Positions 291-34,278 of a DNA stretch of 34,312 nt are shown one piece after another. A model generated the notes under the pieces. It searched no databases, was not told the DNA's origin, and saw only the letters and a program-made list of their open reading frames with translations. Made by a program: the position numbers and the translations under genes. Numbering within the stretch: the stretch's first letter is position 1; each line of letters begins with the position of its first letter. Source of the DNA: an uncultured Aquitalea sp. (GTDB lineage: Bacteria > Pseudomonadota > Gammaproteobacteria > Burkholderiales > Chromobacteriaceae); the NCBI RefSeq assembly GCF_945957525.1, contig NZ_CAMFLA010000030.1:1-34312 (forward strand). Direction: 5' to 3'.

Positions 291-304
291 CTTCGGCCAA
301 CCTT
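291..304 (+). repeat. Copy of recurrent word CTTCGGC(C/A)AAC
   Basis: CTTCGGCCAACCTT in the gene-free left region. It matches the extended consensus seen at 4504-4518 and 9808-9822. See the finding on the recurrent word. Confidence 0.6.
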
Positions 305-476
305 GGGCCGGGCTCTGTATGGGAGCTTATATATAGACAGGCGGCATGAGCGGCTGAGGAGAGACGGCCGGATAAGGGACACGCAGGATAAGGAACACAC
401 AACAGGTCGGGCGCAAGATGTCACCCCGCACGCCCTCCGCACCAATCAGGCATTGCGCATGCGCGCCAACACCCAC

Positions 477-488
477 CTTCGGCAAACC
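477..488 (+). repeat. Copy of recurrent word, just past the argJ terminator
   Basis: CTTCGGCAAACC. It lies 10 bases beyond the argJ terminator stem, as read on the minus strand. This recalls the way uptake sequences cluster at gene ends in Neisseria. Confidence 0.6.
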
Positions 489-497
489 GCAAAACAA

Positions 498-519
498 AAG
501 CCCCTCTTACGAGGGGCTT
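498..519 (-). terminator. Intrinsic terminator of argJ
   Basis: A perfect 9-bp stem (498-506 with 511-519) and a 4-base loop. On the minus strand it is followed by TTTGTTTTG. It lies 76 bases past the argJ stop codon. Confidence 0.85.
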
Positions 520-595
520 GGGGTCGGGCGCATCGGGCATGAGGCCTGGCGTCGGCCCGGTTCTCTATATTAGAGAGGATCAAAAGGGATGCAAC

Positions 596-1813
596 TCAGC
601 TGCGGTAGTCCGCGTTGATTTTGACGTACTCGTAGGAGAAATCGCAGGTCCAGACGGTAGCTTGCGCCGCACCGCGACCCAGCACCACGCGGACGGTGAT
701 TTCACTCTGACTCATCACGCGCTGACCGTCTTCTTCCTGATAGTCGGGATTGCGGCCGCCGTTGCAGGCCACCAGCACATCATCCAGATACAGTGAAAGA
801 CGATCCACATCCAGATCGTTAACACCGGCATAACCGATGGCGCACAGCAGGCGACCCAGATTCGGGTCGGAGGCGAAGAAGGCGGTTTTGACCAGCGGGG
901 AACGCGCAATGGCATAAGCCACGTCCTTGCACTCAGCGATGGAACGGCCGCCTTCCACTTTGACGGTGATGAACTTGGTGGCGCCTTCGCCGTCGCGCAC
1001 GATGGCTTGCGCCAGCTCGGTGGCCACGTCCACCAGCGCAGCCTTGAGAATGGCGTAGGCCGGGTGGCTGACCGCATCAATGCGCGGCGCCGCGCTCTTG
1101 CCGGTGGAGATCAGGATGAAGCTGTCGTTGGTGGACGTGTCGCCGTCAACGGAGATGCAGTTGAAAGAGAGGTCGGCCACTTCCTTGACCAACTGCTCCA
1201 GCACGGGGCGGATGACCGGCGCGTCGGTAGCGACGAAGCCTAGCATGGTGGCCATATTCGGGTGAATCATGCCGGCGCCCTTGGCGATGCCGGTGATCTT
1301 TACCGGATGACCATCGATCTCCAGCGTACGGCTGGCCGCCTTTGGGGCCGTATCCGTGGTCATGATGGCTTCGGCGGCTTCAGCCCAGTTGGCCTGACGA
1401 CGGGTGGGCAATGCACTGATGATTTTGTCGGACGGCAGCGGTTCGAGAATCACGCCCGTGGAAAACGGCAGGATTTGTTCAAGCTCGCAGTCCAGCTCGC
1501 TGGCCAGCGACTGACACACCGACAGCGCGCGGGCGCGGCCGTCTTCGCCTGTGCCGGCATTGGCGTTGCCGGTATTGACCACCAGCGCGCGGATCTGCAC
1601 GCCGGCATCCAGATGTTTTTTGCTGATCTGCACCGGCGCGGCGCAGAAGCGGTTCTGGGTGAACACGCCGGCAACGGTGTTGCCCTTGTCGATGCGCACC
1701 ACCAGCACATCCTTGCGGCCCGGCTTCTTGATGCCGGCTTCGGCCACATTGAGTTCGATGCCGTCAATGACGGCGAGCTGATCCGCCGCGGCGGGAGTGA
1801 GGTTGACTGCCAT
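596..1813 (-). CDS. argJ: Bifunctional ornithine acetyltransferase / N-acetylglutamate synthase ArgJ
   Basis: 405 residues. ArgJ moves the acetyl group from N-acetylornithine to glutamate, recycling it in arginine synthesis; many members also make N-acetylglutamate from acetyl-CoA. The family hallmark is autocleavage into alpha and beta chains in front of a threonine. The matching motif [16 protein letters not shown] is present, with Thr189 as the expected nucleophile. The C-terminus ([10 protein letters not shown]) is also typical. An in-frame ATG 18 codons upstream exists, but the chosen ATG has GGAGAA at good spacing and gives the usual MAVNLTP start. It lies 72 bases downstream of recQ on the same strand, so co-transcription is possible. 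Whether this copy uses acetyl-CoA cannot be told from the sequence. Confidence 0.96.
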
Positions 1814-1885
1814 GATGAATTCTCCATTGCCGGCGCGACTTCGCGCGCCTTCCATACCTATTGTCAAGGGGCGATTGTAGCGGAT

Positions 1886-3679
1886 TCAGCCCGGCTGGCC
1901 ATTGAGGATTTCCAGCAATGGCTCGCTGTAGCGCGCCAGCTTAAGTTCGCCCAAGCCGTATACGCGACTCAACTCCGCCCGGGTTTGCGGGCGTTTTTCC
2001 ACCAGATCGCGCAGCGTGCGATCGGAAAACACCGCGTAAGCCGGGACGTTGTGCTCGTCCGCCATTTGCCGGCGCCATTGGCGCAGCGCTTGCCAGAGTC
2101 GCTCTTCGCGCTCGGTGCGCAACCAGCGGTCGGTGTTGACGCTGCGCGCCTTGCTGTCTTCCGCCACCGGCCTCAGATAGATTTTCTGCTCGCCTTTCAG
2201 CAATGCGCGGCAGCCCTCGGTCAGCACCAGCGACTGGCCGCGGGCGATGTCCACTTGCAACAGTTTGCGCGCCACCAGCTGGCGGATCAGCGAGCGCCAG
2301 GCGCGCTGATTAAAATCCCGCCCGATGCCGAAGGTGCTGACCTTGTCGTGCCCCAGGCCCAGTACGTATTGATTGCTGCGGCCCAGCAACACATCCACCA
2401 CATGGTTGGCCGAACAGCGCTGACCAACGCGGTAAATGCAGGACAGCAGCTTTTGCACCGGCAAGCTGGCGTCAAAGGTGATGGGCGGGCTCAGGCAGTT
2501 GTCGCAATGGCCACAGGGTTTGCTGGCCTCGCCGAAATGGGACAGGATTTGCTGACGACGGCAGGCGGCCGTTTCGCAAAAGGCCAGCATGGCGTCCAGC
2601 TTGCTCAGTTCAACCTGCTTTTGCAGCTCCGCCATTTCCGAACCCTGAATCATCTGGGTCAATTGCACCACGTCATTCAGGCCATAGCACAGCCAGCTTG
2701 AGGCCGGTAGCCCGTCTCGCCCCGCGCGGCCGGACTCCTGATAGAAATTTTCCGGGCTTTTGGGCATGTCGATATGCGCGACGAAGCGCACATCCGGTTT
2801 GTCGATGCCCATGCCGAAGGCTACCGTAGCCACCATCACAATGCCTTCTTCGCGCAGGAATTCGCGCTGATTGGCCTCGCGCACCTCATGCGACAGGCCC
2901 GCGTGATACGGCAGGGCGCGAAGACCGTTTTCCTTCAGCCACTCGGCCGTGTCCTCAACCCGTTTGCGCGAGAGGCAGTACACGATGCCGGAAGCGCCGG
3001 GGTATTCATTATTGATGAACTCCAGCAACTGGCGCTTGGCGTTGTGCTTTTCCACCACCTGATAAAACAGATTGGGTCGATCAAAGCTGGAGAGAAACAC
3101 CCGGGCTTCGGCCAACCTCAGGTAGTGCAGAATGTCTTCCCGTGTTTGCGGATCGGCCGTGGCGGTGAGTGCCACCCGCGGTACCCCGGGGAATTCATCG
3201 GCCAGCAAGCCCAGCTGCTGATACTCGGGACGGAAATCGTGCCCCCACTGACTGACGCAATGCGCCTCGTCAATGGCAAACAGGGCGATGTTCAGCGTAC
3301 GCAGGAAATCCTGAAACCGCGGCGTGAGCAAGCGCTCGGGCGCCACATACAGCAGATCCAGCGTGCCGGCGCGCGCGCGCCGGGCAATGTCGCGGGCATC
3401 GTCAGGTTGGGTGGCGGAGTTCAAGCAGGCGGCGGCAACGCCCAGTTCGGTCAGCGCCGCCACTTGATCCTGCATCAGAGCAATCAGCGGCGACACCACG
3501 ATGGCCACACCGGGTCGCATCAGCGCCGGAATCTGGAAACACAAACTCTTGCCGCCGCCCGTGGGCATCAACACCAGCGCGTGGCCGCCATGGGCGACAT
3601 GCTCGACGATCTCCCCTTGCTGCCCGCGAAAAGCCGGATAGCCGAAGATGTGACTCAATAGGGAATGGGCGTCCTGCAT
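1886..3679 (-). CDS. recQ: ATP-dependent DNA helicase RecQ
   Basis: 597 residues, close to the 609 of E. coli RecQ. It is a 3'-5' DNA helicase of recombination and replication-fork repair. Motifs in order: motif 0 FRGQQ near 18; Walker A MPTGGGKS with Lys44; the DEAH box at 137-140 followed by [13 protein letters not shown]; motif [10 protein letters not shown] near 316. The RecQ-type zinc site is Cys373, Cys389, Cys392 and Cys395. A winged-helix RQC region follows, and a single HRDC domain occupies roughly the last 80 residues. The frame opens 29 codons further upstream (3766), but starting at MQDAHSLL gives the normal family N-terminus. No clear Shine-Dalgarno sequence precedes it. One copy of the recurrent word lies at 3107-3116 and another at 2405-2414. 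Confidence 0.96.
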
Positions 3680-3927
3680 GATGATGTGACCAACGGCGGG
3701 CGCTGGCTTTGACTCGTGAAGTAAGGAAACAAGCGGGCTATTGTACGGCAAAGCGCGGAGGGACAAAAAAAGAGGCCGCCCTGTAAAGGAGCGGCCGAGT
3801 CAAGTTGGATGGAGACAATGTGAAACGAAGAGGAAAATGCTCTCGCCTGATGACAGACCGGCACGCCATCCGGATAGTTCCGCGCGGGCGGAAATTTCTT
3901 CGCCATGCGCCCCTGAAACTCGGCCAT
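3655..3927 (-). CDS. Doubtful small ORF with a strong ribosome binding site, running into recQ
   Basis: The frame of 90 codons starts [12 protein letters not shown], with GGAGG eight bases before the ATG (a near-ideal site). The first 28 or so codons show the GC3 bias of real genes here; later codons do not. The frame has no stop before the terminator at 3765-3796 and overlaps the start of recQ, which argues against full-length translation. In the neighbouring frame a TGA lies just before the terminator stem, so a frameshift (natural or from sequencing) could restore a protein of about 40 to 45 residues. I do not recognise the sequence. It may instead be a small RNA or a decayed gene. Confidence 0.2.
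3740..3767 (-). promoter_or_regulatory. Possible recQ promoter
   Basis: On the minus strand TACAAT (3740-3745) is a good -10. The best -35 candidates, TTGTCC or TTTGTC, are 15 or 16 bases upstream and poor. It lies just after a minus-strand terminator, so recQ needs a promoter about here. Confidence 0.3.
3765..3796 (-). terminator. Intrinsic terminator with no obvious gene to terminate
   Basis: On the minus strand GGCCGC (3791-3796) pairs with GCGGCC (3774-3779) and is followed by TCTTTTTTTG. It lies upstream of recQ. No recognised minus-strand gene precedes it, which implies an unannotated transcript between about 3.8 and 4.0 kb. Confidence 0.6.
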
Positions 3928-3945
3928 CGTCACGGCCTCCAAGAT

Positions 3946-3967
3946 AAAATCCGCCGGGCGGCATTTT
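3946..3967. terminator. Terminator-like hairpin upstream of the doubtful ORF
   Basis: Near-palindrome AAAAT-CCGC...GCGG-C-ATTTT with a one-base bulge. It has A and T runs on both sides, so it could act in either direction. On the minus strand it directly precedes the GGAGG of the ORF starting at 3927. Position and shape would suit an attenuator, but this is inference. Confidence 0.35.
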
Positions 3968-4503: not shown

Positions 4504-4519
4504 CCTTCGGCCAACCTTT
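4504..4519 (+). repeat. Copy of recurrent word, directly after a stop codon
   Basis: CCTTCGGCCAACCTTT begins two bases after the stop codon of the lipoprotein gene. It is one of the longest matches to the consensus and sits in a 51-base gap with no terminator. Confidence 0.6.
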
Positions 4520-8879: not shown

Positions 8880-11162
8880 TCAAGCTCCGCACTCGCCCTG
8901 CGGACGCCAGTAGCGCCTATTGCGCGAACGATGGCAGTCAAACCACACCTGAGCCCCCACCTCCATCTCCAGCATGCCGTCCTGATCAGTACGCAAGACA
9001 GTGATCCCTCTGTCGGCCAACCTGGCCATCACCGTCGGATGCGGGTGCCGATAGCGGTTGCGGTAGCCGGCGCTGATCACCGCCAGTTCGGGCTTGACCG
9101 TATCCAGCCAGAGCCCTGAGGTAGATGTCCGGCTGCCATGATGCCCCGCAACAAGCACCGTGCTGCGCAAGGCATCGCCATAACGCGTCGCCAGCCGCTG
9201 CTCTACAGAAGACGGCGCATCACCGGTCAGCAGCAGCGCATGGCGCAGCCCAGCCACTCGCAACACGCAGCTGTGATCGTTGTCCTCCGCGGAACCCAGA
9301 CCATCCGGCGGCGACAACACATCAAAGCGCACGCCATCCCAAACCCAGCTCATACCCTGACGGCAATCCTCGCCTTGCAAGCCGTAATCCTCCAGCGAAG
9401 CCCGTTGCCCGGCGAGAATACGTACGGGCGGACTCTCCGCCACCAGACTCTGCGCCGCGCCGTCGTGATCGTTGTCGTGATGCGACAACACCAGCATATC
9501 CAGCCGCTCGGCTCCCAACCCACGCAATTGCGGCAGTACCCACAGACCAGCATCGCCAATACCGGTATCAAACAGCAGGGTGTGCCGCCCGGTTTGCACC
9601 AATACCGACAACCCCTGCCCCACATCCAGCACCGTAGCGCGAAAAGCGCCATGCGGCGGCCTTTCCGGGGCATACAACAGCATGGGCATGAACATGCCCG
9701 CTCCCAACAACCGCACCGGCATGCCCCGCGGGGCAATCAACAGCAAGCTGCCGACAAATGCCAGCGCCGCCAATGGCCAGGGCGGCGCTGGCAGGCTCAG
9801 CATCGGCCCTTCGGCAAACCTTGCTGTCCAGTGGTAAAACATGCCGGCCAGCCAGCCGGCAGCGTGCATCAGCCCATCCCAGGGCAACACCACCGCCAAC
9901 AGGCACAAGGGCGTCAGCGCAAAAGACACCAGCGGAATGGCCCATAGATTGGCCAGCGGCGTTATCAGCGGATAACGACCAAACCACCAGATCAAGGGCA
10001 GCACGCCGCACAATGTGGCCGCCCACTGCCCGGCAAAAGCCGAGCGCCACCACGGCAGGCGACCGCGCCGCGCCATGCCGGACGCGATCAACGCCGCCAC
10101 CAGCCCGAAGGACAGCCACAAGCCCGGCGTCAGAACGGCAAACGGGTCCGCCGCCAGCACGGCGGCCAGGGCCATCCACCACAGATGAAAACCGCTCCAG
10201 TGCCGCCGCCAGGCATACATCAGCAGCATCACCGCCAGCATGCCTAGCGTGCGTTGCGTCGGTACGGACAAGCCGGCCATCGCCGCATAAAAACTGGCCG
10301 CCGCCAGGCTGACCATGGCTACCACCATACGCGGCGGCAAGCGGCGACTGGGCCAGCGACGTTGCCACAGCCGGGCCAGCGCCGCGAACACGCCCGCTAC
10401 CATGCTGATGTGCAAACCGCTGATGGACACCAGATGCGTCAGCCCCGTATCCGCCAGCCAGCGCCACTCCTGCCGCCCGATGCGCGATTGCGCACCCACG
10501 GTCAGGCCCGCCACCAGACCGGCTTCCGGCGTATCGCCCAACACCGTCTCGATGCGCGCCACGGCCTGCTCCCGCCAACGATCGATCTGCGCCAACGGGG
10601 CATGGCTCTTGCCCAGCGGCAGCGCCTGACCACTTGCGCTGCCGGTCGCCAAGACACCCTCCGACCACAGCCATTGTTCGGCGTCAAAGCCATAACGGTT
10701 GGCCGGCGCGTGCGGACGGCGCAAACGCGCGCCCATTTTCCAACGGCTGCCCGCAGGCCACGACTGCTGCGTCTCGCCCTTGCGCGCATAGACGGTGACG
10801 ATGATGCGCTTCGGCAAACGTAGGCCCGGGGTCAGCGTGCGCTCCACCTCCAGCGTGAGGCGGGTGCCGTAGTCCTGAACAGACGGCAAACCGCGCACCA
10901 CGGCGACAAAACGCACTGGCACTTGCTCCCAGGCCTCCGGCAGGCTGTCCGCCAGTCGCCATTGCGCCCGCCAGTCTGCCCAGGCAAGGCCGAGCAACAG
11001 CGCGGACAGCAACACCAGCGTCTGCCGACGCCAGCCCGTCGCCGCGCAAACGGCTGAAAGCCGCGCCAACAGCCACAAACCGCACAAGGTCCAGGGCGAG
11101 GGGAGTTCGGGCAGCATGGCGCACAGGCCAATGCCCAGCACAAAAGCGATGAGTAAGGTCAT
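8880..11162 (-). CDS. comEC: DNA uptake channel protein ComEC/Rec2
   Basis: 760 residues. ComEC is the inner-membrane channel that takes single-stranded DNA into the cytoplasm during natural transformation. Order: an N-terminal hydrophobic segment and a DUF4131-type region (about 1-190), the multi-pass Competence domain (about 210-490, with GLTVGAQSRI and LVSISGLHISMVAG), and a C-terminal metallo-beta-lactamase-like domain (about 500-745) with the metal motif SHHDNDHDGA and DTGIGDAG. The motif form H-x-D-N-D-H is usual for Gram-negative ComEC. The start has AAGGGGGG just upstream. The reading frame is intact, so the gene looks functional. It contains two exact copies of the recurrent word (9810-9819 and 10810-10819) and one near copy (9013-9023). 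Confidence 0.95.
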   Translation of the reverse strand: MTLLIAFVLGIGLCAMLPELPSPWTLCGLWLLARLSAVCAATGWRRQTLVLLSALLLGLAWADWRAQWRLADSLPEAWEQVPVRFVAVVRGLPSVQDYGTRLTLEVERTLTPGLRLPKRIIVTVYARKGETQQSWPAGSRWKMGARLRRPHAPANRYGFDAEQWLWSEGVLATGSASGQALPLGKSHAPLAQIDRWREQAVARIETVLGDTPEAGLVAGLTVGAQSRIGRQEWRWLADTGLTHLVSISGLHISMVAGVFAALARLWQRRWPSRRLPPRMVVAMVSLAAASFYAAMAGLSVPTQRTLGMLAVMLLMYAWRRHWSGFHLWWMALAAVLAADPFAVLTPGLWLSFGLVAALIASGMARRGRLPWWRSAFAGQWAATLCGVLPLIWWFGRYPLITPLANLWAIPLVSFALTPLCLLAVVLPWDGLMHAAGWLAGMFYHWTARFAEGPMLSLPAPPWPLAALAFVGSLLLIAPRGMPVRLLGAGMFMPMLLYAPERPPHGAFRATVLDVGQGLSVLVQTGRHTLLFDTGIGDAGLWVLPQLRGLGAERLDMLVLSHHDNDHDGAAQSLVAESPPVRILAGQRASLEDYGLQGEDCRQGMSWVWDGVRFDVLSPPDGLGSAEDNDHSCVLRVAGLRHALLLTGDAPSSVEQRLATRYGDALRSTVLVAGHHGSRTSTSGLWLDTVKPELAVISAGYRNRYRHPHPTVMARLADRGITVLRTDQDGMLEMEVGAQVWFDCHRSRNRRYWRPQGECGA

Positions 11163-13182: not shown

Positions 13183-13764
13183 CTAGCCGCTCTGGCGCCG
13201 CTTGCGCGACACCTGCGCCTCAATGTTTTTGCGCGCGATCAGCAAACCCTGCCCGGCCGGCCTGGCGGGCTGGGCGGCCTCGCCAAGCCACTTGTACATC
13301 ACCAGGCAATCTACCAGGCCCAGCGCCGAATGACGGTACGCCTTCGGCAAACGTCCCACCTCGGCAAAGCCCAGTTTTTGCCACAACGCCACTGCCGTGG
13401 TGTTGCTGCTCACCACGCTGTTGAACTGCATGGCGAGAAAGCCGCGCTCGCGCGCCCGCGCTTGCGAATGCTCGCACAAGGCGCTGGCGACGCCCTTGCC
13501 GCGCGCGGCCGGGTCCACCATATAACCGCAATTGCACACATGACCGCCCGGTCCCGCCGCATTCGGCTTGAGAAAATAGCTGCCCAGCAAACGGCCATCC
13601 TCTTCGGCCAACCAGGTTTCCAGTGGCAGATCGCACCACAGCGCGCGCGCTTGCTCCGGCGTCATCGCCGGATCGTAAGCATAAGTTTCCTGCGCCGACA
13701 CAATGGCGGCGAACACCGGCCAGAAGGCAGCGAAATCGGCGTGAGTCATGCGGCGGATGTTCAT
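13183..13764 (-). CDS. GNAT-family N-acetyltransferase
   Basis: 193 residues. It has the GNAT acetyl-CoA fold: beta strands with GRLLGSYFLKPN, the pyrophosphate-binding loop VDPAARGKGVASALCEHSQARARERGF, and a C-terminal VALWQKLGFAEVGRLPKAYRH. The sequence is like yhhY-type or phosphinothricin-type acetyltransferases; the substrate is unknown. A basic tail of about 35 residues (RKNIEAQVSRKRRQSG at the end) extends beyond the domain. The start ATG overlaps the stop of the EamA gene by four bases (ATGA), so the two are translationally coupled. Two copies of the recurrent word lie inside (13343-13352 and 13603-13612), in different frames. Confidence 0.9.
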   Translation of the reverse strand: MNIRRMTHADFAAFWPVFAAIVSAQETYAYDPAMTPEQARALWCDLPLETWLAEEDGRLLGSYFLKPNAAGPGGHVCNCGYMVDPAARGKGVASALCEHSQARARERGFLAMQFNSVVSSNTTAVALWQKLGFAEVGRLPKAYRHSALGLVDCLVMYKWLGEAAQPARPAGQGLLIARKNIEAQVSRKRRQSG

Positions 13765-14678
13765 GGTGTCTCCAGGTTGGCCGAAGGGCGTGGTTCCGGT
13801 TTGCGGGTCATGCCGCCGGACAGCAGGCTGGCGCCGGCAATCAGCGCGCCGCCCAGCCACTCGCTGGCAGTCATGGTTTCGTGGGCCAGCAGCCAGGCGG
13901 ACAGCGCCGCAAACACCAGCTCCATCAACATCAGTGTCATGGTTTGCGTTGCCGGCAACTGGCTGACACCGTGTTGGGAAATCACGCTGGTGGCCAGCAA
14001 GGTGCAACCCAGAATCCCCAGCAGCAGCCAGCCTTGCGGCGTAATGGTCAACAAACGGGGCAGGCTGTCGTGCAACCACAGACTGGTAAAGCCCATGCTG
14101 GCCACGCCCACCCAGATGGTGGCGGACTTCACCGGCACCGGCAGGCCCTTGGCCCCGCGGCTCAAGACATTGCCCAGCGCAAAGGCCACCCCGCCGGACA
14201 AGGCCAGCCACTCGTAGCGCTGACTGAGCATGGCTGCGCCATCCAGCGCGCCGGGCCGATAAAGAATGACCATGCAGCCCGCCAGCGACAAGACCACCAC
14301 CAGCCAGCCCTGCCGGGTCAACCGTTCCTTGAGCAACAGCCAGGCGAACAACACCGACCACAAGGGCGACAGATAAAACAACAGCAACACCCGCATCACC
14401 AGCCCCTCGGACACGGCCCAGGTGTAGCTGAAATTGCACCAGCCAAACAGGAAAGCCAGCGGCAACAATACCGGCTGGAAACGGAACTGCCGGCGAAACA
14501 CATCGCGGAATACCGCCACGCCCAGCGTTGCCGCCACCAGATACACCACCAAAGAAGTCATGGGAATGCTAACGCCGCGCTCATTGAGCGCGCGAAAGGG
14601 GAACCACATCAGGCCCCACACCAGCGCCGTGACCAGAATGCAGGCCACCGCCAGAAGCTTTTGTTTTACAAGAGGCAT
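13761..14678 (-). CDS. EamA/DMT-superfamily transporter
   Basis: 305 residues with about ten hydrophobic segments in two repeats, the layout of drug/metabolite transporters. The first repeat starts with ILVTALVWGLMWFPFR and has LFYLSPLWSVLFAWLLLKERL at its end; the second ends with MTLMLMELVFAALSAWLLAHETMTASEWLGG. The pattern (P/E-W in loops, LKE and HE motifs) is typical for EamA. The substrate cannot be told; amino acids or related metabolites are possible. The start at 14678 lacks a clear Shine-Dalgarno sequence. It is coupled to the GNAT gene by a four-base overlap, and a copy of the recurrent word (13776-13785) encodes its C-terminal SANLETP. Confidence 0.9.
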   Translation of the reverse strand: MPLVKQKLLAVACILVTALVWGLMWFPFRALNERGVSIPMTSLVVYLVAATLGVAVFRDVFRRQFRFQPVLLPLAFLFGWCNFSYTWAVSEGLVMRVLLLFYLSPLWSVLFAWLLLKERLTRQGWLVVVLSLAGCMVILYRPGALDGAAMLSQRYEWLALSGGVAFALGNVLSRGAKGLPVPVKSATIWVGVASMGFTSLWLHDSLPRLLTITPQGWLLLGILGCTLLATSVISQHGVSQLPATQTMTLMLMELVFAALSAWLLAHETMTASEWLGGALIAGASLLSGGMTRKPEPRPSANLETP

Positions 14679-19402: not shown

Positions 19403-20023
19403 ATGAAAAAATTCCTCGCTTGCTTCTGTGTTCTGCTGGGCCTCAGCGCCCCCGTTTTCGCCGCCGCCGACAATCCGGTGGACCTGGTGCGCGACGCATC
19501 CCGCCAGATTCTGGACACCATCAAGAAAGAAAACGGCAAGAACACTGCACAGATCCGCCAACAGGTGGAGTCCATCGCCGTACCCCAGTTCGACTTCCAA
19601 CGCATGACAGCGCTGGCCGTCGGCATGGGCTGGCGTCAGGCTTCGCCGACCCAGCAAGGCCAGCTGGCCCAGCAATTCCAAACCCTGCTGGTACGCACCT
19701 ACTCCTCCACCATGACCCGCTTCAAGAATGCGCAAATCGACGTCAGCCCGAATGCCGTCATGGGCAACAGCGGCCGCGAAGCCACCGTCAAGACCCAGGT
19801 TTCCCTGCCCGGTGCCAACGACAAGGGCCCGGTAGCCGTTGACTACACCCTGTACAAAACTGCTCAAGGCTGGAAGGTATTCAATGTCAGCGTGGAAGGC
19901 GCCAGCCTGGTTACGGTCTACCGCAACCAGTTCACTCAGGAAATCAGCAAGAGCGGCGTGGACGGCCTGATCAAGATGCTGCAGGACAAGAACGCTGCCC
20001 CGGCTGCGGCCAGCAAGGGTTGA
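19403..20023 (+). CDS. mlaC: Periplasmic phospholipid-binding protein MlaC
   Basis: 206 residues. A signal peptide (MKKFLACFCVLLGLSAPVFA, cleaved after AFA-type AAA) precedes the Ttg2D/MlaC domain with VDLVRDASRQILDTIKKE and ALAVGMGWRQASPTQQGQLAQQFQTLLVRTYSSTM. MlaC carries phospholipid through the periplasm between MlaA and MlaD. The frame is open from a TTG at 19388; the ATG at 19403 gives a normal signal peptide. The Shine-Dalgarno sequence is weak for either start. Confidence 0.94.
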   Translation: MKKFLACFCVLLGLSAPVFAAADNPVDLVRDASRQILDTIKKENGKNTAQIRQQVESIAVPQFDFQRMTALAVGMGWRQASPTQQGQLAQQFQTLLVRTYSSTMTRFKNAQIDVSPNAVMGNSGREATVKTQVSLPGANDKGPVAVDYTLYKTAQGWKVFNVSVEGASLVTVYRNQFTQEISKSGVDGLIKMLQDKNAAPAAASKG

Positions 20024-20025
20024 TC

Positions 20026-20319
20026 ATGTTCGAGGAAACCGCTCCGGGCGCCGGTCGCCTGACCGGCAAACTGGATATGAACAGCAGCGGCGCGCTGCTG
20101 CAGACACTCACGCGCCGCGCCGCCTCCGGACCGCTGCGACTGGATATCTCCGGCATCGACGAGGCCGACTCCGCCGCCATCGCGCTGCTACTGGCCAGCC
20201 AGCGCGCAGCGCAGGCCGCCGGCCACGCACTGACACTGGAAGGTTGGCCGAAGAACCTGCGCAGCCTGGTTGAGCTGTACGCACTGGACGGGCTGCTCGG
20301 CCTGTCGGGAGAACATTGA
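20026..20319 (+). CDS. mlaB: STAS-domain protein MlaB
   Basis: 97 residues. A single STAS domain (RLTGKLDMNSSGALLQTL... LRLDISGIDEADSAAIALLLASQ). MlaB binds MlaF and stabilises or activates the complex. The ATG lies two bases after the mlaC stop, and the stop codon overlaps the mlaA start. The Asp-Ser of DEADSAAIALL is at the position phosphorylated in anti-sigma antagonists, but in MlaB it is not known to be regulated. A copy of the recurrent word (20243-20252) encodes GWPKN. Confidence 0.92.
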   Translation: MFEETAPGAGRLTGKLDMNSSGALLQTLTRRAASGPLRLDISGIDEADSAAIALLLASQRAAQAAGHALTLEGWPKNLRSLVELYALDGLLGLSGEH

Positions 20320-21535: not shown

Positions 21536-21550
21536 CCTTCGGCCAATCTT
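21536..21550 (+). repeat. One-base variant of the recurrent word at the end of the chemoreceptor gene
   Basis: CCTTCGGCCAATCTT overlaps the stop codon of the chemoreceptor gene (minus strand) and lies between it and the terminator. It differs from the consensus by one base (T for C). Confidence 0.5.
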
Positions 21551-23531
21551 ACAGCTTGAAGCGGCCAATCAGCCTTTCCAGCTCATCGCCCAGGGTTTTC
21601 AGGCACTCGGTGGCGTCATGCGCCTGCGCCACCGACTCATCAGTCCGTTGCAACATATTGTGAATGCTCTCGATATGTTGGGCGATCTCCTGACTGGCGG
21701 TGGACTGCTCTGCCGTCGCCACAGCGATATCTCCCACGGTACGCACCACCTGCTGCGTGTTGTCGGTAATCAGCGAGATGGAATCCGCCGCCGCGCGCGC
21801 CAGCCTCACCCCCGAGTCCACCTGCGCCAGCGCGCCATCCATGCTGCCGGAAGCGCGGCCGGTTTCCTGCTGGATGCTAGAGATCATGCCGCCGATTTCA
21901 AGCGTGGCCTGCGCCGTGCGTTCGGCCAACTTGCGCACCTCGTCGGCTACCACCGCAAACCCCCTGCCCTGTTCGCCCGCGCGCGCCGCCTCAATGGCCG
22001 CATTCAAGGCCAGCAGATTGGTCTGGTCGGCAATATCGCGAATCACATTGACGATGCTGCTGATATCCGCCGAGCGCGTTTGCAAAGAGGCCATCACATC
22101 GGACAGGGCGCGCACCGTGGCGGCAATCTGCCCGATTTCCGCCGCCGTGGAATGTACGCTGCCCGCCACCTGACGCGACAACTCGCCCGCCTCCTGCGCC
22201 AGTCCTTCGGCAGAGCGAGTGGAGTCGGCAATATGGCTGATGCTGACCGACAGCTGCTCCACACTGGCGGCCGTGGCGTTGGCCGCCTCGGACTGCTGGG
22301 CCGAACTACTGCGGATATGGCGGATATCGCCGGCCAGGCCACGCACCGATGACGACAAATCGTCGGCATGGCCTTTAACATCCACCATCATGTCGTGCAA
22401 CAGGCCGGTAAAGCGGTTGAAGGCGGCGGCAGCCTGGCCGATTTCATCCTTGCCGTTGCCCTGCAACTGGCGAGTCAAATCGCCGGTACCATCGGACAAT
22501 TCGCTCATCGCGCGCTGCAGACGACTTAGCGGACGCAAACTCAGGCTGATCCCCATGCCCATCAACAGCATGATGAGCGCCAGAATGGCGGCGCTGATAA
22601 TGATGGATTGCCATAGTGCCGCTTTGGCCGGCGCCAGCGCGGCCTCCAGCGGAATGCTGATGCGCACGGCCCAAGGCGCGGCGATGGCGCCAACAGTGAC
22701 CGGCATCACGAAGTGGCGGTTGCCGTCGCCGGTTTCATACTGGTAGGGCTGACCCTTCAGGATGGCTTCCTTGGCCTCTGCCGGCAAAGCGTTATCTGGC
22801 TTGCCTATCAGCGCCTTGTCCGGACCGCCCAACAACACCGCCTTGTTGGAGTACAAGCTCATGAAACCGCTGTCGTAGGGTTTGATCTTGGCAGCCAGCT
22901 CCTGCAAGTGGCCCAGCGCCAGATCAACACCCGTCACCCCTATCGCCTTGCCGTCCGCCAGCAAGGGGATGGACAGCGTGCCCATCAGAATCTTGATGTC
23001 CGGATCGACATAAGGCTCGGTCAGCATCGGCTTGCCGCTGGCCTTGGGCGTTTTGTAGTAGTCGCTGTCGTCTACCCCCTCAGCACCCCACACTACATCC
23101 ACCTTGCCGCCCTTGGTAAACCAGTAAACGCCGGCGCGACCCGTTTTGTCGTTATGCTCAGAACCGGCCAACTCCTTGTCCTTGCCATCCAGCGCATCCG
23201 GCTCCCAGATCACCCAGTAGCCCACGGCATCAGGATTGTGCGGCAGCTGGCGCTTGGTCATCTCGGAAATCAGCGCGCGCGGATTGGCTTGCTGGCCTTG
23301 CCTCACAGCCATTGCATCTTCGGACAGGGCCTGCACGGTATTGAAAGAAGACTCCAGCAAGCGCTGCACATTGCCAGCCTCGCGCTGCGCCAGCAATTCG
23401 GCGCTGCCAAGCGCCGCCTGGCGCGCTTGCTGGTAATTGCTGTAACTGTTGGCCCCGATGAGCAGGGAGAATCCCACGAATATCAGCGCAGCGCTGCCGG
23501 CCAGCATCTTGCTGCGGATGGTTGTCAGCAT
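21549..23531 (-). CDS. Methyl-accepting chemotaxis protein with a periplasmic Cache sensor
   Basis: 660 residues. A membrane helix (about 9-31), a large periplasmic sensor of dCache type (about 35-275), a second helix (about 283-305), HAMP, and a signalling domain. The sensor has TEPYVDP and GVTGVDLAL, common in Cache receptors for amino acids and amines, but the Arg and Trp of the classical amino-acid motif are not obvious (DSDYYKTP instead), so the ligand is unknown. The hairpin tip is [39 protein letters not shown]. No CheR/CheB-tethering pentapeptide ends the protein. The start is set at [10 protein letters not shown]; the frame opens 20 codons upstream. The gene separates mla from the murA operon. 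Confidence 0.93.
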
Positions 23532-23682
23532 ATTGAACCCGTTTTGTTTATCTGTTTTGCGATGCGGTCGCTCCGTCTTGCACATGGGCAAGACACGCCA
23601 CTTCCCCTTTTATGATCATAGATAAAGGAAAAACAGGTTTCCTGACAATAGTTAAAAATCCGTCGCGTAGCATAAATGATAA
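23532..23682 (-). promoter_or_regulatory. AT-rich upstream region of the chemoreceptor gene
   Basis: Between the murA terminator and the chemoreceptor start the DNA is AT-rich. On the minus strand TTGTCA (23643-23648) could be a -35, but the -10 at 17 bases (TTATCT) is poor. A perfect 10-bp palindrome TATGATCATA lies at 23611-23620. No sigma28-type box was recognised. Confidence 0.35.
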
Positions 23683-23730: not shown

Positions 23731-24990
<1,260 letters not shown>

Positions 24991-25266: not shown

Positions 25267-26022
25267 CTAATGGCGCAGCTTGTAGCCGGACTTGATCAGC
25301 CACAACGCCAGGCCGGAAAGCAAGAAGAAACTGCCACCCACCACAGCCAGCGACAACCAGGGACTGACGTCGGCCTGGCCGAAGAAGCCGTAGCGGAAAC
25401 CGTCGATCATGAAAAACACCGGGTTGATGTGCGACACGGTATACCAGAACGGCGGCAGGCTATTGATGGAGTAGAACACGCCAGAGAGGAAAGTCAGCGG
25501 CATGATCAAAAAGTTCTGGAAAGCGGCCAACTGATCGAACTTTTCCGCCCAGATGCCAGCAATCACCCCCAGCGTGCCCAGTACGCCGCACCCCAACAAG
25601 GCAAAAACGAAGGCCCAGAGCGGATGCGCGGGCAACGGCAGTCCAAACCATGCCGTGACCAACAGCACGCCAAGGCCAACCGCCAGACCTCGTACGATGG
25701 CCGCCAACGTGTAGGCCGAGAAAAACTCCACGGCAGTCAGCGGCGGCAGTAGCAAGAACACGATATTGCCGGTGATCTTGGACTGGATCAGGCTGGAAGA
25801 ACTGTTGGCGAAGGCGTTTTGCGCCATCGACATCATGGCCAGACCCGGGATCAGAAAAGCCGTATAGCTCACGCCCGGATAGGCTTCGACATGACGCGAC
25901 AGAACATGGGAAAAGATCAGTTGGTACATCAGCGCTGTCAGCACTGGAGCAGCCACGGTCTGGAAGGACACCTTCCAGAAACGCACCAGCTCCTTGCGGA
26001 ACAAGGTCATGAAGCCCTGCAT
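25267..26022 (-). CDS. ABC-2 type transporter permease
   Basis: 251 residues with six hydrophobic segments. It carries the ABC-2 pattern (FRKELVRFWKVSFQTVAAPVLTALMYQLIF near the start and PLTFLSGVFYSINSLPPFWY near 180), like YadH and NodJ-type exporters. It is the membrane partner of the ATPase just upstream, whose stop codon overlaps its start (TGATG). The substrate is unknown; cell-envelope lipids or polymers are possible given the murA context, but this is inference. Confidence 0.91.
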   Translation of the reverse strand: MQGFMTLFRKELVRFWKVSFQTVAAPVLTALMYQLIFSHVLSRHVEAYPGVSYTAFLIPGLAMMSMAQNAFANSSSSLIQSKITGNIVFLLLPPLTAVEFFSAYTLAAIVRGLAVGLGVLLVTAWFGLPLPAHPLWAFVFALLGCGVLGTLGVIAGIWAEKFDQLAAFQNFLIMPLTFLSGVFYSINSLPPFWYTVSHINPVFFMIDGFRYGFFGQADVSPWLSLAVVGGSFFLLSGLALWLIKSGYKLRH

Positions 26023-26924
26023 CAGTTGGCGCCCTCCTGCATCATGCGTACGAAGACGCTTTCCAGATCCTGCTCGATCACATTGAGCTCCCGTACGGCC
26101 ACGCCCGCTTCGCGCAGGGCGGCGAGCACGCCTTCCAGTTGCGACAACTCGCTCAGCCTGAGCACGACGCGCTTGTCTTCATCGCGCACCTTGAGGGCTT
26201 GCAAGGCCGCTGGCAACTCGCCCGCCAAGCGCAACGACACTTCGCGCTCCGCGCCGTGACGCAGCAATTTGCCTTTTTCCTCCAGCGCCACCAGCTTGCC
26301 CCGCTTGAGCATGGCGATACGATTGCAGAGCGTTTCGGCCTCTTCCAGATAATGGGTGGTCAGCACGATGGTGTGGCCGGCCTGATTCAGCTCCTGAACG
26401 AAAGCCCACAGGCTTTGGCGCAACTCCACATCCACCCCGGCAGTGGGCTCGTCCAGCACGATGACCGGCGGGCGATGCACCAGCGCTTGAGCCACCATGA
26501 CCCGTCGCTTCATGCCACCGGAGAGCGCCCGCATGTTGGCGTTGGCCTTTTCGGCCAACCCCAGTTTGAACAGCAATTCGTCGATCCAGTCGTCGTTGCG
26601 GGTCAGTCCGAAATAACCGGACTGGAACTGCAGGGTTTCGCGTACCGACAGAAACGGATCAAACACCAGTTCCTGCGGCACCACGCCAAGACTTTTGCGC
26701 GCAGCGCGAAAATCGCCGACTACGTCATGGCCCATGATGCGAATGTCGCCGCAACTGGGGCGGGACAAACCCGCCATGGCGGAGATGAGCGTCGTCTTGC
26801 CCGCCCCGTTGGGGCCAAGCAAGGCAAAAAATTCGCCGGATTCGACGGTGAAGCTGACATCGTCCAGCGCCTGAAAAGCGCCGTAATGCTTGCTCACCGA
26901 GCGGATTTCAATGGCCGAAGGCAT
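26022..26924 (-). CDS. ABC-2 type transporter ATP-binding protein
   Basis: 300 residues. Walker A LLGPNGAGKTTL, signature LSGGMKRRVMVAQAL, Walker B VIVLDEPTAGVD and switch His in LTTHYLEEAE. The C-terminal 80 residues carry the extra domain found in YadG-type and drug-export ATPases. It is first in the operon with its permease, ibaG and murA. This pair also neighbours ibaG-murA in other betaproteobacteria. The recurrent word at 26550-26559 encodes GLAEKA. Confidence 0.93.
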   Translation of the reverse strand: MPSAIEIRSVSKHYGAFQALDDVSFTVESGEFFALLGPNGAGKTTLISAMAGLSRPSCGDIRIMGHDVVGDFRAARKSLGVVPQELVFDPFLSVRETLQFQSGYFGLTRNDDWIDELLFKLGLAEKANANMRALSGGMKRRVMVAQALVHRPPVIVLDEPTAGVDVELRQSLWAFVQELNQAGHTIVLTTHYLEEAETLCNRIAMLKRGKLVALEEKGKLLRHGAEREVSLRLAGELPAALQALKVRDEDKRVVLRLSELSQLEGVLAALREAGVAVRELNVIEQDLESVFVRMMQEGAN

Positions 26925-29152: not shown

Positions 29153-32100
29153 ATGTTTTCCGCCTTTTTCATCCGGCGGCCCATCTTCGCCAGCGTGATA
29201 TCCATCATTATCATGCTGGCGGGTCTGGCCGCCATCAAGGCATTGCCCGTCGAGCAATACCCTGAAATCGTGCCGCCGGTCGTGCAAGTGAGCGCCTCCT
29301 ATCCGGGCGCCTCGGCCGAAGTGATCGCCAACACCGTCGCCGCCCCGCTGGAGCAGGCCATCAACGGCGTAGACAATATGCTCTACGTGCAGTCGGTCAG
29401 CTCCAGTAGCGGCAAACTGGTGCTGAACGTGTCGTTCAAGATCGGCACGGACGCCGACCAGGCCACCATCAACGTCAACAACCGCGTGCAGTCCGTTACC
29501 TCACAGTTGCCCGAAGAGGTGCGCCGCCAGGGTGTCAACGTCTCCAAGAAGTCCAACTCCATCCTGCAGGTGATTTCGCTGTACTCGCCGGACAAGAGCT
29601 ACGACACCCTGTACATAAGCAACTACGCGCTGCTGAACGTGGTGGATGAGCTCAAGCGGGTGCCGGGCGTGGGCGACGTGGTCAACTTCGCCGGCCAGGA
29701 CTACTCCATGCGCGTGTGGCTGAAGCCGGATCGCCTGGCCCAGCTCAAGCTCACCCCCAGCGATGTTGCTTCCGCTATTCGCGAGCAGAACGCGCAGTTC
29801 GCCGCCGGCAAGATCGGCGCGGAACCGCTGAAGGGCAAGCTGGACTTCACCTACACCGTCACCACCAAGGGACGACTGTCCGAACCGGAGGAGTTCGAGA
29901 ACATCATCCTGCGCTCCAACGGCGACGGCTCATCGGTACGGCTGAAGGACGTGGCCCGCGTGGAGCTGGGCGCGCTCTCTTACGACTTCAATGGCGTGCA
30001 TAACGGTCGCCCCACCATCCCGGTAGGTATCTTCCTGGCGCCGGGTGCCAACCAGCTGGCTACTGCGCAAGCGGTGGAAACCGAGATGAAGCGGCTGTCG
30101 CAGAGCTTCCCCAAAGGCCTGTCTTACGGCATCCCGTACGACACCACCAAGTTTGTGGAAGTCTCCATCAATGAGGTGTATCACACCCTGGCTGAAGCCA
30201 TGGTGCTAGTATTTGCCGTGGTCTTCCTCTTCCTGCAGAACTGGCGCGCCACGCTGATTCCCTGCCTGGCCGTGCCCGTTTCCATCGTCGGTACTTTTGC
30301 CGGCATGTATCTGTTCGGATTCTCCATCAACACGCTGACCCTGTTCGGCATGGTGCTCGCCATCGGTATCGTGGTGGATGACGCCATCGTGGTGCTGGAA
30401 AACGTAGAACGACTGATGTCGGAAGAAAAACTCACGCCGCGGCAAGCCAGCTTCAAGGCCATGGAAGAAGTGTCCGGCGCGCTGGTGGCCATCGTACTGG
30501 TGCTCTGCTCGGTATTTATCCCGGTAGCCTTCCTTGGCGGTATCGCCGGCCAGATGTACAAGCAGTTCGCCATCACCATTGCGGTATCGGTCACCATCTC
30601 CGGTCTGGTTGCCCTGACGCTGACGCCCGCCCTGTGCGCGCTGATTCTCAAGGAAGGCCATCAGAAGCCGGCCCGCTTCTTTGTCTGGTTCAACAACTGG
30701 TTCGACAACCTTACCAGTCGTTACACCTCGGGCGTGGCCTTCTTCATCAAGCGTTCCGCACTGGGCATCCTGCTGTTTGGCGGCCTGATCGTGCTGTGCA
30801 TCGGCCTGTTCCGCACCATCCCCAGCAGCTTGGCCCCGGATGAAGATCAGGGCTACATTCTGGCGGTGGCGATTCTGCCGGACGGCGCTTCCCTGCAACG
30901 CACGGAAGCGACGATGAGCAGGCTGGACGCGATGATGGCCAGCAATCCGGCCGTGCAAGACCGCATGTCCTTCGCTGGCTTCGACATCCTTTCCGGCGGC
31001 AACCGCACCAACGCCGGCGTGTCCTTCATCACCCTCAAACCTTGGGACGAGCGCAAGACACCTGACCTGTCATCCCAGGCCGTGGTCAAGGACGTGTTCG
31101 GCAAAGGCATGATGGGCATCACCGACGGTATCGTGCTGGCCTTCAACCCGCCGCCGATCTCCGGCATGTCCAACACCGGCGGCTTTGAAGCCTATGTGCA
31201 GAACCGCAACGGCGCCAGCTCCACGGAGTTGGGCGAGGTGACGCAGAAGCTGATTCAGGCCGCCTCCAAGCGCCCTGAACTCAAGGGTGTCCAATCCACC
31301 TATTCGGCCAACGTGCCCCAGCTGTTCGTACAGCTGGATCGTGCCAAGGCCAAGTCCCTCAACGTGCCGATCAACACGGTGTTCGACACCATGCAAAGCA
31401 CCTTCGGGGCCCTGTATGTGAACGACTTCAATAAATTCGGCCGTACCTTCCGCGTACAGCTGCAATCCGAAGCCGACTTCCGTACCAAGGTGGACGACCT
31501 GCGCAACATCTATGTCCGCTCGCAAGACGGCAACATGATCCCGCTGACTTCGCTGGTTACCGTACAGCAAACCACCGGCCCGGAAAGCCTGGAGCGTTAC
31601 AACATCTTCCCGGCCGCCAAGGTGGTGGGTGGTCCCGCACCGGGCTATAGCTCGGGTGAGTCCCTCAATGCCATGGAAGCTGTCGCCAAGGAAGTATTGC
31701 CCGAAGGCTATACCCTAGCCTGGACCGGCTCCGCCTTCCAGGAAAAATCCAGCAGCGGCTCTTCAGTGATGGTGTTCGCGTTCGGCATGATCATGGTATT
31801 CCTGATTCTGGCTGCTCAGTATGAGCGATGGAGCCTGCCGATCAGCGTGCTGATGGCCGTACCGTTCGCGGTGTTCGGCGCGCTGATGGCCAACTGGCTG
31901 CGCGGGCTGGCCAACGACGTCTACTTCCAGGTAGCGTTGGTTACCCTGATTGGTCTGTCGGCGAAAAACGCGATTCTCATTGTCGAGTTTGCGGTACAGC
32001 AGATGGAAGAAGGACTGGGTCTGGTCGAAGCAGCGCTTGCGGCTGCGCGACTGCGCTTCCGCCCCATCGTCATGACCTCCCTCGCTTTCGTGCTGGGCTG

Positions 32101-32296
32101 CGTTCCGCTGGCCATTTCCAGCGGCGCCGGTTCGGCCAGCCGACACTCCATCGGCACGGGCGTGATCGGCGGCATGCTGGCGGCCACATTCATTGCCACC
32201 TTCTTTATCCCGATGTTCTTCATGCTCATCATGAAGCTCTCCAAAAACACAGAGCCCAAGGCGAAAGCCGAGGCAGGAGGCAACGCAGATGCTTAA
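29153..32296 (+). CDS. acrB: RND multidrug efflux pump, HAE1 family (AcrB-like)
   Basis: 1047 residues, the standard size. It is the proton-driven inner-membrane pump. The N-terminus [20 protein letters not shown] is typical. Proton-relay residues are Asp409-Asp410 in [17 protein letters not shown] and Lys938 in [14 protein letters not shown]. Two large periplasmic loops with the porter and docking domains lie between helices 1-2 and 7-8. It probably exports hydrophobic drugs; the spectrum cannot be told. The 3' end overlaps the outer-membrane factor gene by eight bases. Confidence 0.95.
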
Positions 32297-33686
32297 GCGT
32301 GCCCTTATCCCCATGGCTGTCTCTCTGGCCCTCACCGCCTGCGCGGTAGGCCCGGACTACAGCCGCCCCAAACTCGATCTGCCACAGCAAGCGGCGTCGC
32401 CCGCCGCCGTGCAGCAGGATTGGTGGAAGCAGTTTGATGACGCCACGCTCAACAGCCTCATCGACGAAGCCGTGCAGCACAACAAGGATCTGGCGCAAGC
32501 ACAGGCACAGGTGGAAGAAGCCGCAGCGCTGGCTGGCATTGCCCGGGCTCAGTTGCTACCCAGCATCAATGCCAATGCCGGCTATCAGCGCGGCCGATCC
32601 TCGGTAGAAACCACCACGCCAAGTACGCCACTGGTCGCCGATGTCCGTTCGGCCAACCTTACCGCCTCGTGGGAGCTTGACCTCTGGGGCAAGCTGCGTC
32701 GCAGCAGCGAAGCCGCCCGCGCCACGCTGGCAGCCAGCCGCTATACCCAGGATGCGGTGCGCCTTTCCATCAGCGCCCAGGTTGCGCAGACCTACTTCCA
32801 GCTGCGCGCGCTGGATGCCCAGCTCGATATCGCCAAGCGCACGCTCAAAAGCCGCGAGGAGTCGCTCAGCCTTCGCCAGAAGCGCTTTAACGGCGGCATG
32901 ACCTCAGAGCTCGACCTGCGTCAAGCCGAGGCCGAGGCGGCCTCGGCGCGCGCCACGGTACCGCAACTGGCCAAGTCCGTCGACCAGACCGAAAGCGCGT
33001 TGGGCATTCTGCTCGGTCGCTCTCCCCGGGACTTGATTGACGGCACGGTGTCTCGCGGCAAAGCCATTGAGCAACTGCGCACTCCGCCAGCCATTCCGGC
33101 GGGGCTGTCTTCCAGCCTGCTGGAGCGCCGGCCGGATCTCGCCGCGGCGGAAGCACAGTTGATTGCCGCCAATGCGCGCATTGGCGTGGCCAAGGCAGCC
33201 TACTTCCCCACCATCAGCCTGACCGGAGCACTGGGGTCGCAGAGCACCTCGCTCGACAGCCTGTTTACCAGCCCCACTCGTACCTGGAGCTTTGTCGGCA
33301 ACCTTGCCGCGCCGGTATTCAACTTTGGTCAAACCGGCATGAACGTGGACGCTGCCAACGCGCGCCAGAAGCAAGCGCTGGCACAGTACGAAAAGAGCGT
33401 GGAAACCGCCTTCAAGGAAGCCCGCGACGCACTGAGCGCCAACAGTACCGCGCGTCAGGTTCAGGAAGCGCAAATCACCCAGCTGACAGCACTCAACAAG
33501 GCGCTGCATCTGGCCACATTGCGTTACGACAATGGCTATTCCAGCTATCTGGATGTACTTGATGCCGAACGCAATGCCTTCCAGGCCGAGCTGAATCTGG
33601 TCAATGCGCAGCTGGATCGCCTCAACGCCTCCGTCAGCCTTTACAAGGCTTTGGGCGGCGGCTGGGAAGGCCCGCACGCCGACTGA
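32289..33686 (+). CDS. oprM: Outer-membrane efflux lipoprotein, OprM/NodT family
   Basis: 465 residues. Lipobox LTAC with Cys18, followed by [14 protein letters not shown], the OprM/NodT start. Two repeats of beta-strand and long helices follow, with [17 protein letters not shown] near 125-141 and [23 protein letters not shown] near the end. The protein forms the trimeric exit duct of the pump. It completes a self-contained tripartite system and is followed by a strong terminator. The recurrent word at 32648-32657 encodes SANLT. Confidence 0.95.
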
Positions 33687-33700
33687 TATCGCCCCAAAGC

Positions 33701-33727
33701 AAAAGCCGCTACATGGTAGCGGCTTTT
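33701..33727. terminator. Intrinsic terminator between the efflux operon and the DUF5329 gene
   Basis: A perfect 12-bp stem AAAAGCCGCTAC/GTAGCGGCTTTT with loop ATG, followed by TTT on the plus strand and a T-rich tail on the minus strand. It can serve both convergent genes. Confidence 0.88.
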
Positions 33728-33742
33728 TTTGTCTCTACTTGC

Positions 33743-34105
33743 TCAGTGCGACTGGCGATACTGCTTCAGCGCGGCGTTCAGCCACACTCCCGACTCCATC
33801 ACAGGCTGCCCGGGACAGGCCAGATGGTACGGCTTACCGGACAGATAGCTCTTGCTGGCAACACCCTGAATGAAATCCTCGGTAGTCTTCACGCGATCAC
33901 CAGCTTTATCCAACTTCATCTTCAAGTGGTCCACGGCCGTCGCAGCGTCATACCAGCTCCCGCTGCGCTCGAACTTGCAATTCGACTGGCCAATCTTGCC
34001 CAGCAAAAAATTGATCTCCTTCCCCGGCACACCCTCGGGCATCGCCTCAGCTACCAGAGGCAACACGATTAACGCGCCCAAATACCAAAATTGTTTCTTC
34101 AACAT
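33743..34105 (-). CDS. Secreted DUF5329-like protein
   Basis: 120 residues. A signal peptide (MLKKQFWYLGALIVLPLVAEA) is followed by one small domain: EINFLLGKIGQSNCKFERSG, SWYDAATAVDHLKMKL, TTEDFIQGVASKSYLSGKPYHLACPGQPV and a C-terminal WLNAALKQYR. The two cysteines probably form a disulfide. The pattern fits DUF5329, a family of unknown function; assignment is by pattern. AAGGA precedes the ATG at 34105; the frame is open to 34174, but that start lacks a signal peptide. Confidence 0.82.
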   Translation of the reverse strand: MLKKQFWYLGALIVLPLVAEAMPEGVPGKEINFLLGKIGQSNCKFERSGSWYDAATAVDHLKMKLDKAGDRVKTTEDFIQGVASKSYLSGKPYHLACPGQPVMESGVWLNAALKQYRQSH

Positions 34106-34189
34106 GCTTCCTTCCAATAAGGTCTGATCAAGCAAGCCTGTATCCTGCCTGTACTGCACAAGCCTGACCAGCACTCATGGATGAACAAA

Positions 34190-34200
34190 GTTTGCCGAAG
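34190..34200 (-). repeat. Copy of recurrent word upstream of the DUF5329 gene
   Basis: CTTCGGCAAAC on the minus strand, in the gene-free right edge, 85 bases upstream of the DUF5329 start. A second copy lies 78 bases further on in the same orientation. Confidence 0.6.
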
Positions 34201-34240
34201 TGACTGGACTGCCCCGGCACCTGTAGGCATTCCGGCCTTA

Positions 34241-34262
34241 TGATTGGACATCGGACCAATCA
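34241..34262. repeat. Short inverted repeat at the right edge
   Basis: TGATTGG (34241-34247) and CCAATCA (34256-34262) around eight bases, between the two copies of the recurrent word. Possibly an operator; nothing else supports it. Confidence 0.4.
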
Positions 34263-34267
34263 CACAC

Positions 34268-34278
34268 GTTTGCCGAAG
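34268..34278 (-). repeat. Copy of recurrent word at the right edge
   Basis: CTTCGGCAAAC on the minus strand. Just after it, AAGGAGG (34288-34294) precedes an ATG at 34305 that is cut by the window end; too little remains to call a gene. Confidence 0.55.

Follow-up and report, generated by a model that had tools for sequence, protein, structure and literature searches.

A probable DNA uptake sequence dialect outside the Neisseriaceae and its candidate ComP-class receptor

The window analyzed here, a stretch of 34,312 nucleotides, is the entire contig C30 of the 4.05-Mb genome G000 (35 contigs; estimated to be 100% complete and 0% contaminated). The 10-base word TTCGGC(C/A)AAC, which recurs throughout it, is very probably a dialect of the DNA uptake sequence (DUS) lying outside the Neisseriaceae. 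A DUS read by a ComP-type pilin would account together for the density of the word, its strand balance, its dialects, its depletion from an island and its covariation with a receptor. With the loops of the ComP homologue, these features made uptake the best-supported reading of the word, as the initial annotation had proposed, the uptake itself being what we infer from them. An exact-word scan of the window recovered all 18 copies at the positions and on the strands that had been listed (Table 1), including the 12 that extend to CTTCGGC(C/A)AAC. The expectation of well under one copy by chance also held, as 100 dinucleotide shuffles gave a mean of 0.18 copies and a maximum of 1.

In the whole genome, 1,984 copies were counted (1,008 forward and 976 reverse; about one per 2.0 kb), compared to 29 (16 + 13) for a control pattern read backwards. 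In the 387 kb formed by contig C1 and the window, no 10-mer was more over-represented than TTCGGC(C/A)AAC, which hence had a DUS-like density, that of a top 10-mer occurring about once per 1 to 2 kb. A codon-aware count was made on the 310 kb of called coding sequence within these 387 kb, using as background 200 synonymous shuffles that kept the protein sequence and codon usage. The coding copies numbered 143, far above the ∼9.6 obtained by shuffling (∼15-fold), with 97 copies of the C form (mean, 6.4; maximum of 200 shuffles, 13) and 46 of the A form (mean, 3.3; maximum, 10). The protein sequence does not, as the annotation had argued, explain the copies. They also fall in several frames, as had been stated, and all six were occupied, with a bias in that 77 of the 143 read xLAE or xFAE. 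Confinement to one protein motif in one frame, which had been named as a refutation, was not observed. Of 194 copies in C1 and the window, 2 lay across a gene end and 49 were intergenic, a share that is probably too high because our own simple gene caller, which left out some genes, covered 79% of C1 and 90% of the window.

The distribution of the word was examined by counting the pattern YKCGGCCAAC in 61 genomes from 10 genera (g1 to g10) of the family of G000. This family is probably the Chromobacteriaceae and g7 is probably Chromobacterium; as guesswork, g1, the genus of G000, may be Aquitalea and g5 may be Vogesella. This comparison with sister genera detected enrichment in 23 of the 61 genomes (holders) and 7 of the 10 genera, comprising 13/13 genomes of g5, 2/2 of g4, 2/2 of g3, 3/3 of g2, 1/1 of g6, 1/1 of g10 and 1/10 of g1 (G000). 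The word was absent from the nine genus-mates of G000 (0/9) and from g7 (0/19), g8 (0/6) and g9 (0/4). The weakest holder, G026 (84% complete), had 294 versus 66 counts with YKCGGCCAAC and 205 versus 17 with TTCGGCMAAC, and non-holders reached at most 3.4 times the control, so that the boundary between the two groups was clear though not wide. The genus-mates were at about twice the control level for TTCGGCMAAC (e.g., 75 versus 48), a level that could be either residual or background.

Stretches of 11 of the 23 holders yielded three dialects: TTCGGC(C/A)AAC, CTCGGCCAAC in g4 (read in 2 genomes) and TGCGGCCAAC in g5 (read as TGCGGCCAACCTT in 2 genomes). The C form TTCGGCCAAC was the dialect of g2, g3, g6 and g10 (read in 6 genomes), and the A form was common in G000. 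Across the seven genera the dialect differed between lineages and was constant within them, the exception being g1, with the word in 1 of 10 genomes. In G010, the first 5-kb stretch was devoid of the word and 80 kb elsewhere held 29 copies. The same method found GCCGTCTGAA 41 times in a 21-kb Neisseria locus, which served as a positive control, and no comparable word in the single loci examined from Snodgrassella, Formivibrio and Chitinimonas. In a count across the order (300 genomes, including 9 from this family), CGGCCAACCT was abundant only in the family (442 copies in G000, 485 in g6 and 1,149 to 1,267 in three g5 genomes), the highest count in the other 291 being 64. No other dialect at DUS density was detected in the word-less genus-mates (320 kb of G001 and G004; 532 kb pooled from seven mates), and none was seen in short stretches (40 to 180 kb) of g7, g8 and g9, of which that of G034 had a GC content of 0.224 and was evidently much masked. 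Overall, these analyses indicated that the word is genuine, does not depend on codon use and is restricted to particular lineages. It went unreported in the titles and abstract openings of the literature searched, and Table S1D of Frye 2013, which gives over-represented 10-mers for five genomes from this neighbourhood, may contain it.

A candidate comP gene of G000 lies outside the window (C9:75210-75596, + strand), preceded by a PilX gene and by a gene with a pilin-type N terminus. A profile (A1) of eight pilins from word-bearing genomes matched the solved ComP structures first (2NBA, 4e-21; 2M3K, 8e-19; 5HZ7, 1.6e-18), with the next pilins at ∼2e-13. All eight rows match the Pfam model ComP_DUS, so that by both the Pfam model and proximity to solved ComP these pilins are ComP homologues; a stretch resembling LLENAxFxExxYxxxGxxKxTSTxWPxLP is common to them and to solved ComP. 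A ComP-class pilin was found in all 15 holders searched, which cover all seven word-bearing genera. Scores with A1 were 117 to 216 bits for these holders (inflated, as the profile was built from holders), 144 to 159 for the nine genus-mates, 102 to 138 for five g7 genomes and 85 to 113 for four g8 genomes, while four g9 genomes gave at most 68.2 bits, the same level as PilE-like pilins. The profile also found a ComP-class pilin in the g7 genome G032, which we take to be Chromobacterium violaceum ATCC 12472. The part of Frye et al. 2013 (PMC3630211) that deals with C. violaceum describes it as having no ComP detectable by BLAST. Presence of the ComP_DUS model by itself was uninformative, since it passes the cutoff in 55 of the 61 genomes. 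The best ComP_DUS match in G000, a pilin whose soluble portion matched PilE (4NOA), was rejected as the receptor.

In Neisseria, the alpha1-beta1 and beta1-beta2 loops of ComP contact the DUS, according to nuclear magnetic resonance results in excerpts of PMC4906244 and PMC12061091. These loops were compared in 30 pilins, 15 from holders and 15 from non-holders (nine g1, five g7 and one g8). The alpha1-beta1 motif [STPA][TN]x(W/M)P was present in 15/15 holder pilins and 0/15 non-holder pilins, and N[TVA]D in the beta1-beta2 loop was present in 14/15 (g10 fails) and 0/15, respectively, for motifs drawn up after the alignment had been viewed and holders that are related. The weightiest contrast is that between G000 and its nine genus-mates; a tree of the pilins grouped that of G000 with theirs (support, 92/93), subject to a long-branch warning. 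Net charge did not separate the pilins of holders from those of non-holders. The G000 pilin has Val in place of Phe at the first position of its mature part (RG/VTLLEL), and its third Cys is in the helix region. Of the uptake machinery, ComEC is encoded in the window and DprA is present in G000, a presence that says little by itself because 11 of 14 control genomes have DprA as well.

In the proposed mechanism, a type IV pilus would display the ComP-class pilin, which would bind the word on extracellular double-stranded DNA, and the pilus would pull the DNA bearing the word inward. ComEC would then move one strand over the inner membrane for recombination by DprA and RecA. Since fragments bearing the word would enter more often, the word would accumulate through point change and recombination, within and between genes. 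An uptake word might instead be read by another pilin or another type of protein, as G000 has four matches to the ComP_DUS model, the best being PilE-like in its soluble part, and as ComP-class pilins have two cysteines and are found in word-less genomes. We consider this unlikely, because the ComP-class pilin is the closest to solved ComP and the state of its contact loops follows that of the word in a test that covered ComP-class pilins.

Strand balance was examined on the 353-kb contig C1, where the two strands carried 94 and 82 copies (p = 0.41) while GC skew was negative in 34 of 36 bins; replichore polarity was therefore rejected for this contig. Neighbouring copies had mixed orientations (++, 48; +-, 46; -+, 45; --, 35). 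These data bear on the other role suggested in the initial annotation, that of a genome-architecture word. Such a word for chromosome architecture or recombination, akin to KOPS, Chi or matS, would be recognized in a single orientation by an enzyme such as FtsK or RecBCD. KOPS and Chi are polarized along replichores, and HIP1 is palindromic. The word resembles all three in being short and in high copy, and it is abundant, non-palindromic and genome-wide; however, it was neither polarized nor palindromic on the sequence tested, a single contig in the case of polarity, and genus dialects and absence from sister species would be odd for a core chromosome function. The suggestion was thus not supported, and we regard it as very improbable.

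Spacing on C1:1-330,000 was slightly more regular than random (coefficient of variation, 0.90; 5% quantile, 271 bp versus 97 bp expected). Gaps of <20 bp separated 4 of 174 neighbours, all in opposite orientation, compared to ∼2 expected at random by our own arithmetic, and no match was found to a pattern of a double word at one fixed spacing. Such close pairs, and the palindrome GGCC within the C form, would suit a site for restriction-modification, a regulator or a terminator. The A form, however, breaks the palindrome, there are ∼2,000 sites, mainly within genes in the part examined, and inverted pairs are too few for terminators, which leaves this alternative with a slighter chance still.

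Depletion of the word was observed in an island at C1:330,001-352,812 (GC content, 0.43 to 0.52), which held 1 copy versus 12.1 expected (p = 7e-5), given a boundary set after the copy profile had been seen and a lower GC content that itself lowers the expectation somewhat. DUS-poor mobile DNA is known in Neisseria. The island encodes a Mu-type transposase, TniQ, TIR, a NERD-helicase, a large helicase and a reverse transcriptase. Nearly free of the word, it resembles a transposon-borne defence island.

At 15 word sites that could be aligned to genus-mates, the word was kept in 0 of 79 comparisons and 3 to 4 mismatches were present in 53, more than at random aligned 10-mers. Differing codons were non-synonymous in 101 of 175 cells at word sites and 9,834 of 26,394 elsewhere, and this higher share suggests that the word may override protein sequence. 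Both results are biased, since presence of the word in G000 was the criterion for choosing the sites and the same cells recur from mate to mate. The alternative that the copies are a by-product of codon use, of protein motifs or of a mobile repeat and have no DNA-word function, to which the 77 coding copies encoding LAE or FAE might point, has a negligible probability, being largely refuted by the codon-aware excess, the intergenic copies, the use of six frames, flanks that have no homology and the 0/79 comparisons.

Aligned flanks were informative only from about −3 to +12, with C at −1 in 75% of copies, C or A at position 7 and C then T after AAC, and conservation stopped beyond ∼13 bp. The extended word is thus CTTCGGC(C/A)AAC(C)T, or AGGTT(G/T)GCCGAA(G) on the opposite strand, where the G form is AGGTTGGCCGAA. 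The word had been considered unlike those of Neisseria. Its core is CCG and not CTG, but on its reverse strand AGGTTGGCCGAA is identical at 9/12 positions, ungapped, to AG-simDUS (AGGCTGCCTGAA, as given in a section of PMC10715097), with the same 9/12 for AG-mucDUS. Homology with the Neisseria words is suggestive and not proven, because shuffled 12-mers matched equally well at a rate of 0.5% when no shift was permitted and 0.9% when shifts were. Compared to the eight Neisseriaceae dialects (AT-, AG-, muc-, sim-, king-, king3-, eik- and wadDUS), 8 of 10 core positions bear a base present in some known dialect, the exceptions being +5 (G) and +7 (C). The word has T at +2 like mucDUS and T at +3 like sim- and eikDUS, and the g5 dialect ends in CA like king3DUS, whereas the g4 dialect alters +10, a position constant in all eight dialects according to part of PMC3630211.

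As a system, the word shares with Neisseriaceae DUS a length of ∼10 to 12 bp, thousands of strand-balanced copies in coding and intergenic DNA, lineage dialects and a homologous ComP minor pilin, but it occurs in another bacterial family and is absent from several of its genera. The uptake signal sequence (USS) of the Pasteurellaceae is AAGTGCGGT. It is likewise an abundant lineage-specific word linked to natural transformation but is unrelated and has a receptor other than ComP; ComN is proposed in PMC12616744.

Several observations weigh against a DUS read by a ComP-class pilin. The word appears DUS-like, yet the system lacks two Neisseria features that a strict definition requires. The first is the CTG core (+6 to +8), conserved in all eight dialects and essential in Neisseria according to sections of PMC3630211 and replaced by CCG in the word. 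The second is the DD region of Neisseria ComP, with four conserved Cys and two disulfides as described in part of PMC4906244; 14/15 holder pilins had 2 Cys and that of G000 had 3, so that a single cysteine pair is conserved in the receptor homologue, with no two-disulfide DD region. One-mismatch variants were only ∼2-fold enriched (90 versus ∼47), less than is reported for Neisseria in passages of PMC3630211. All nine genus-mates and all 19 g7 genomes were devoid of the word. A ComP-class pilin is nevertheless retained in these mates and in the five g7 genomes that were searched, so having the pilin is not enough to predict the word. The after-the-fact loop motifs, the relatedness of holders and the bias in site comparisons count likewise. 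Word sites were also hardly shared between genera, with 1 in common (17 in G000 and 8 in others; 1/24; 40.6 kb aligned), and therefore words turn over.

An ancestral system is favored over repeated gain, because of the shared core, the shared receptor and the resemblance to Neisseria. It seems somewhat likelier than the contrary that ComP-type sequence-specific uptake predates the split between the Neisseriaceae and the sister family, and that its code drifted into at least three dialects devoid of the CTG core and was lost or switched off several times, with the pilin gene kept. In a tree of MurA (one gene, several long branches and g10 left out), G000 was sister to its nine genus-mates and g1 was sister to g7, while two Neisseriaceae fell outside the family as its sister. 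The putative MurA of G000 was nearest to those of Neisseria, Formivibrio and Snodgrassella (76 to 77%) among the best 80 of 592 named-genome matches. The habit of using an uptake word was formerly thought to have arisen only in the Neisseria family, and such a word now looks to be present in many relatives of this bacterium. If functional, it would move the origin of the DUS system back in time and show that the CTG core can change. The word and receptor pairs, including word-less relatives with the receptor, would then allow tests of DNA reading by a pilin and of code loss or switching, and g1 would, if the ancestral reading is true, offer a natural before-and-after pair for gain or loss of an uptake code.

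Table 1. Copies of the word and the comEC gene in the window
Feature	Position	Strand	Context
word TTCGGCCAAC	292..301	+	intergenic
word TTCGGCAAAC	478..487	+	intergenic
word TTCGGCCAAC	2405..2414	-	within called gene 1886-3766 (-)
word TTCGGCCAAC	3107..3116	+	within called gene 1886-3766 (-)
word TTCGGCCAAC	4506..4515	+	intergenic
comEC/rec2	8880..11162	-	Competence, DUF4131 and lactamase_B domains; inner-membrane DNA-uptake channel, component of uptake machinery
word TTCGGCAAAC	9810..9819	+	within comEC
word TTCGGCAAAC	10810..10819	+	within comEC
word TTCGGCAAAC	13343..13352	+	no called gene at site
word TTCGGCCAAC	13603..13612	+	no called gene at site; 5/6 genus-mates carry TTCGGCCAGC or CTCGGCCAGC
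word TTCGGCCAAC	13776..13785	-	close to 3' end of called gene 13761-14678 (-)
word TTCGGCCAAC	20243..20252	-	within called gene 20020-20319 (+)
word TTCGGCCAAC	21921..21930	+	within chemoreceptor gene 21549-23591 (-)
word TTCGGCCAAC	24178..24187	+	within EPSP-synthase-family gene 23731-24984 (-)
word TTCGGCCAAC	26550..26559	+	within called gene 26022-26924 (-)
word TTCGGCCAAC	31303..31312	+	within RND efflux pump gene 29153-32296 (+)
word TTCGGCCAAC	32648..32657	+	within outer-membrane efflux gene 32289-33686 (+)
word TTCGGCAAAC	34190..34199	-	intergenic
word TTCGGCAAAC	34268..34277	-	intergenic

The comEC gene of G000 thus itself holds two copies of the word. The EPSP-synthase-family gene at 23731-24984 (-) is the one that we take to be murA, a label of our own. 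In G016, GACCTGACCC was rejected as an uptake word, as it occurs in inverted pairs 40 to 41 bp apart (six in ∼21 kb; G016:C1:29345-50070) and belongs to a hairpin-type repeat family. In the word-less genus-mate G001, CCAGTTGCAG was ∼9-fold over-represented (20 versus 2.15 in 220 kb, or about 1 per 11 kb). Within the window, positions 29153-33686 (+) hold tandem genes for an RND efflux pump and an outer-membrane factor.

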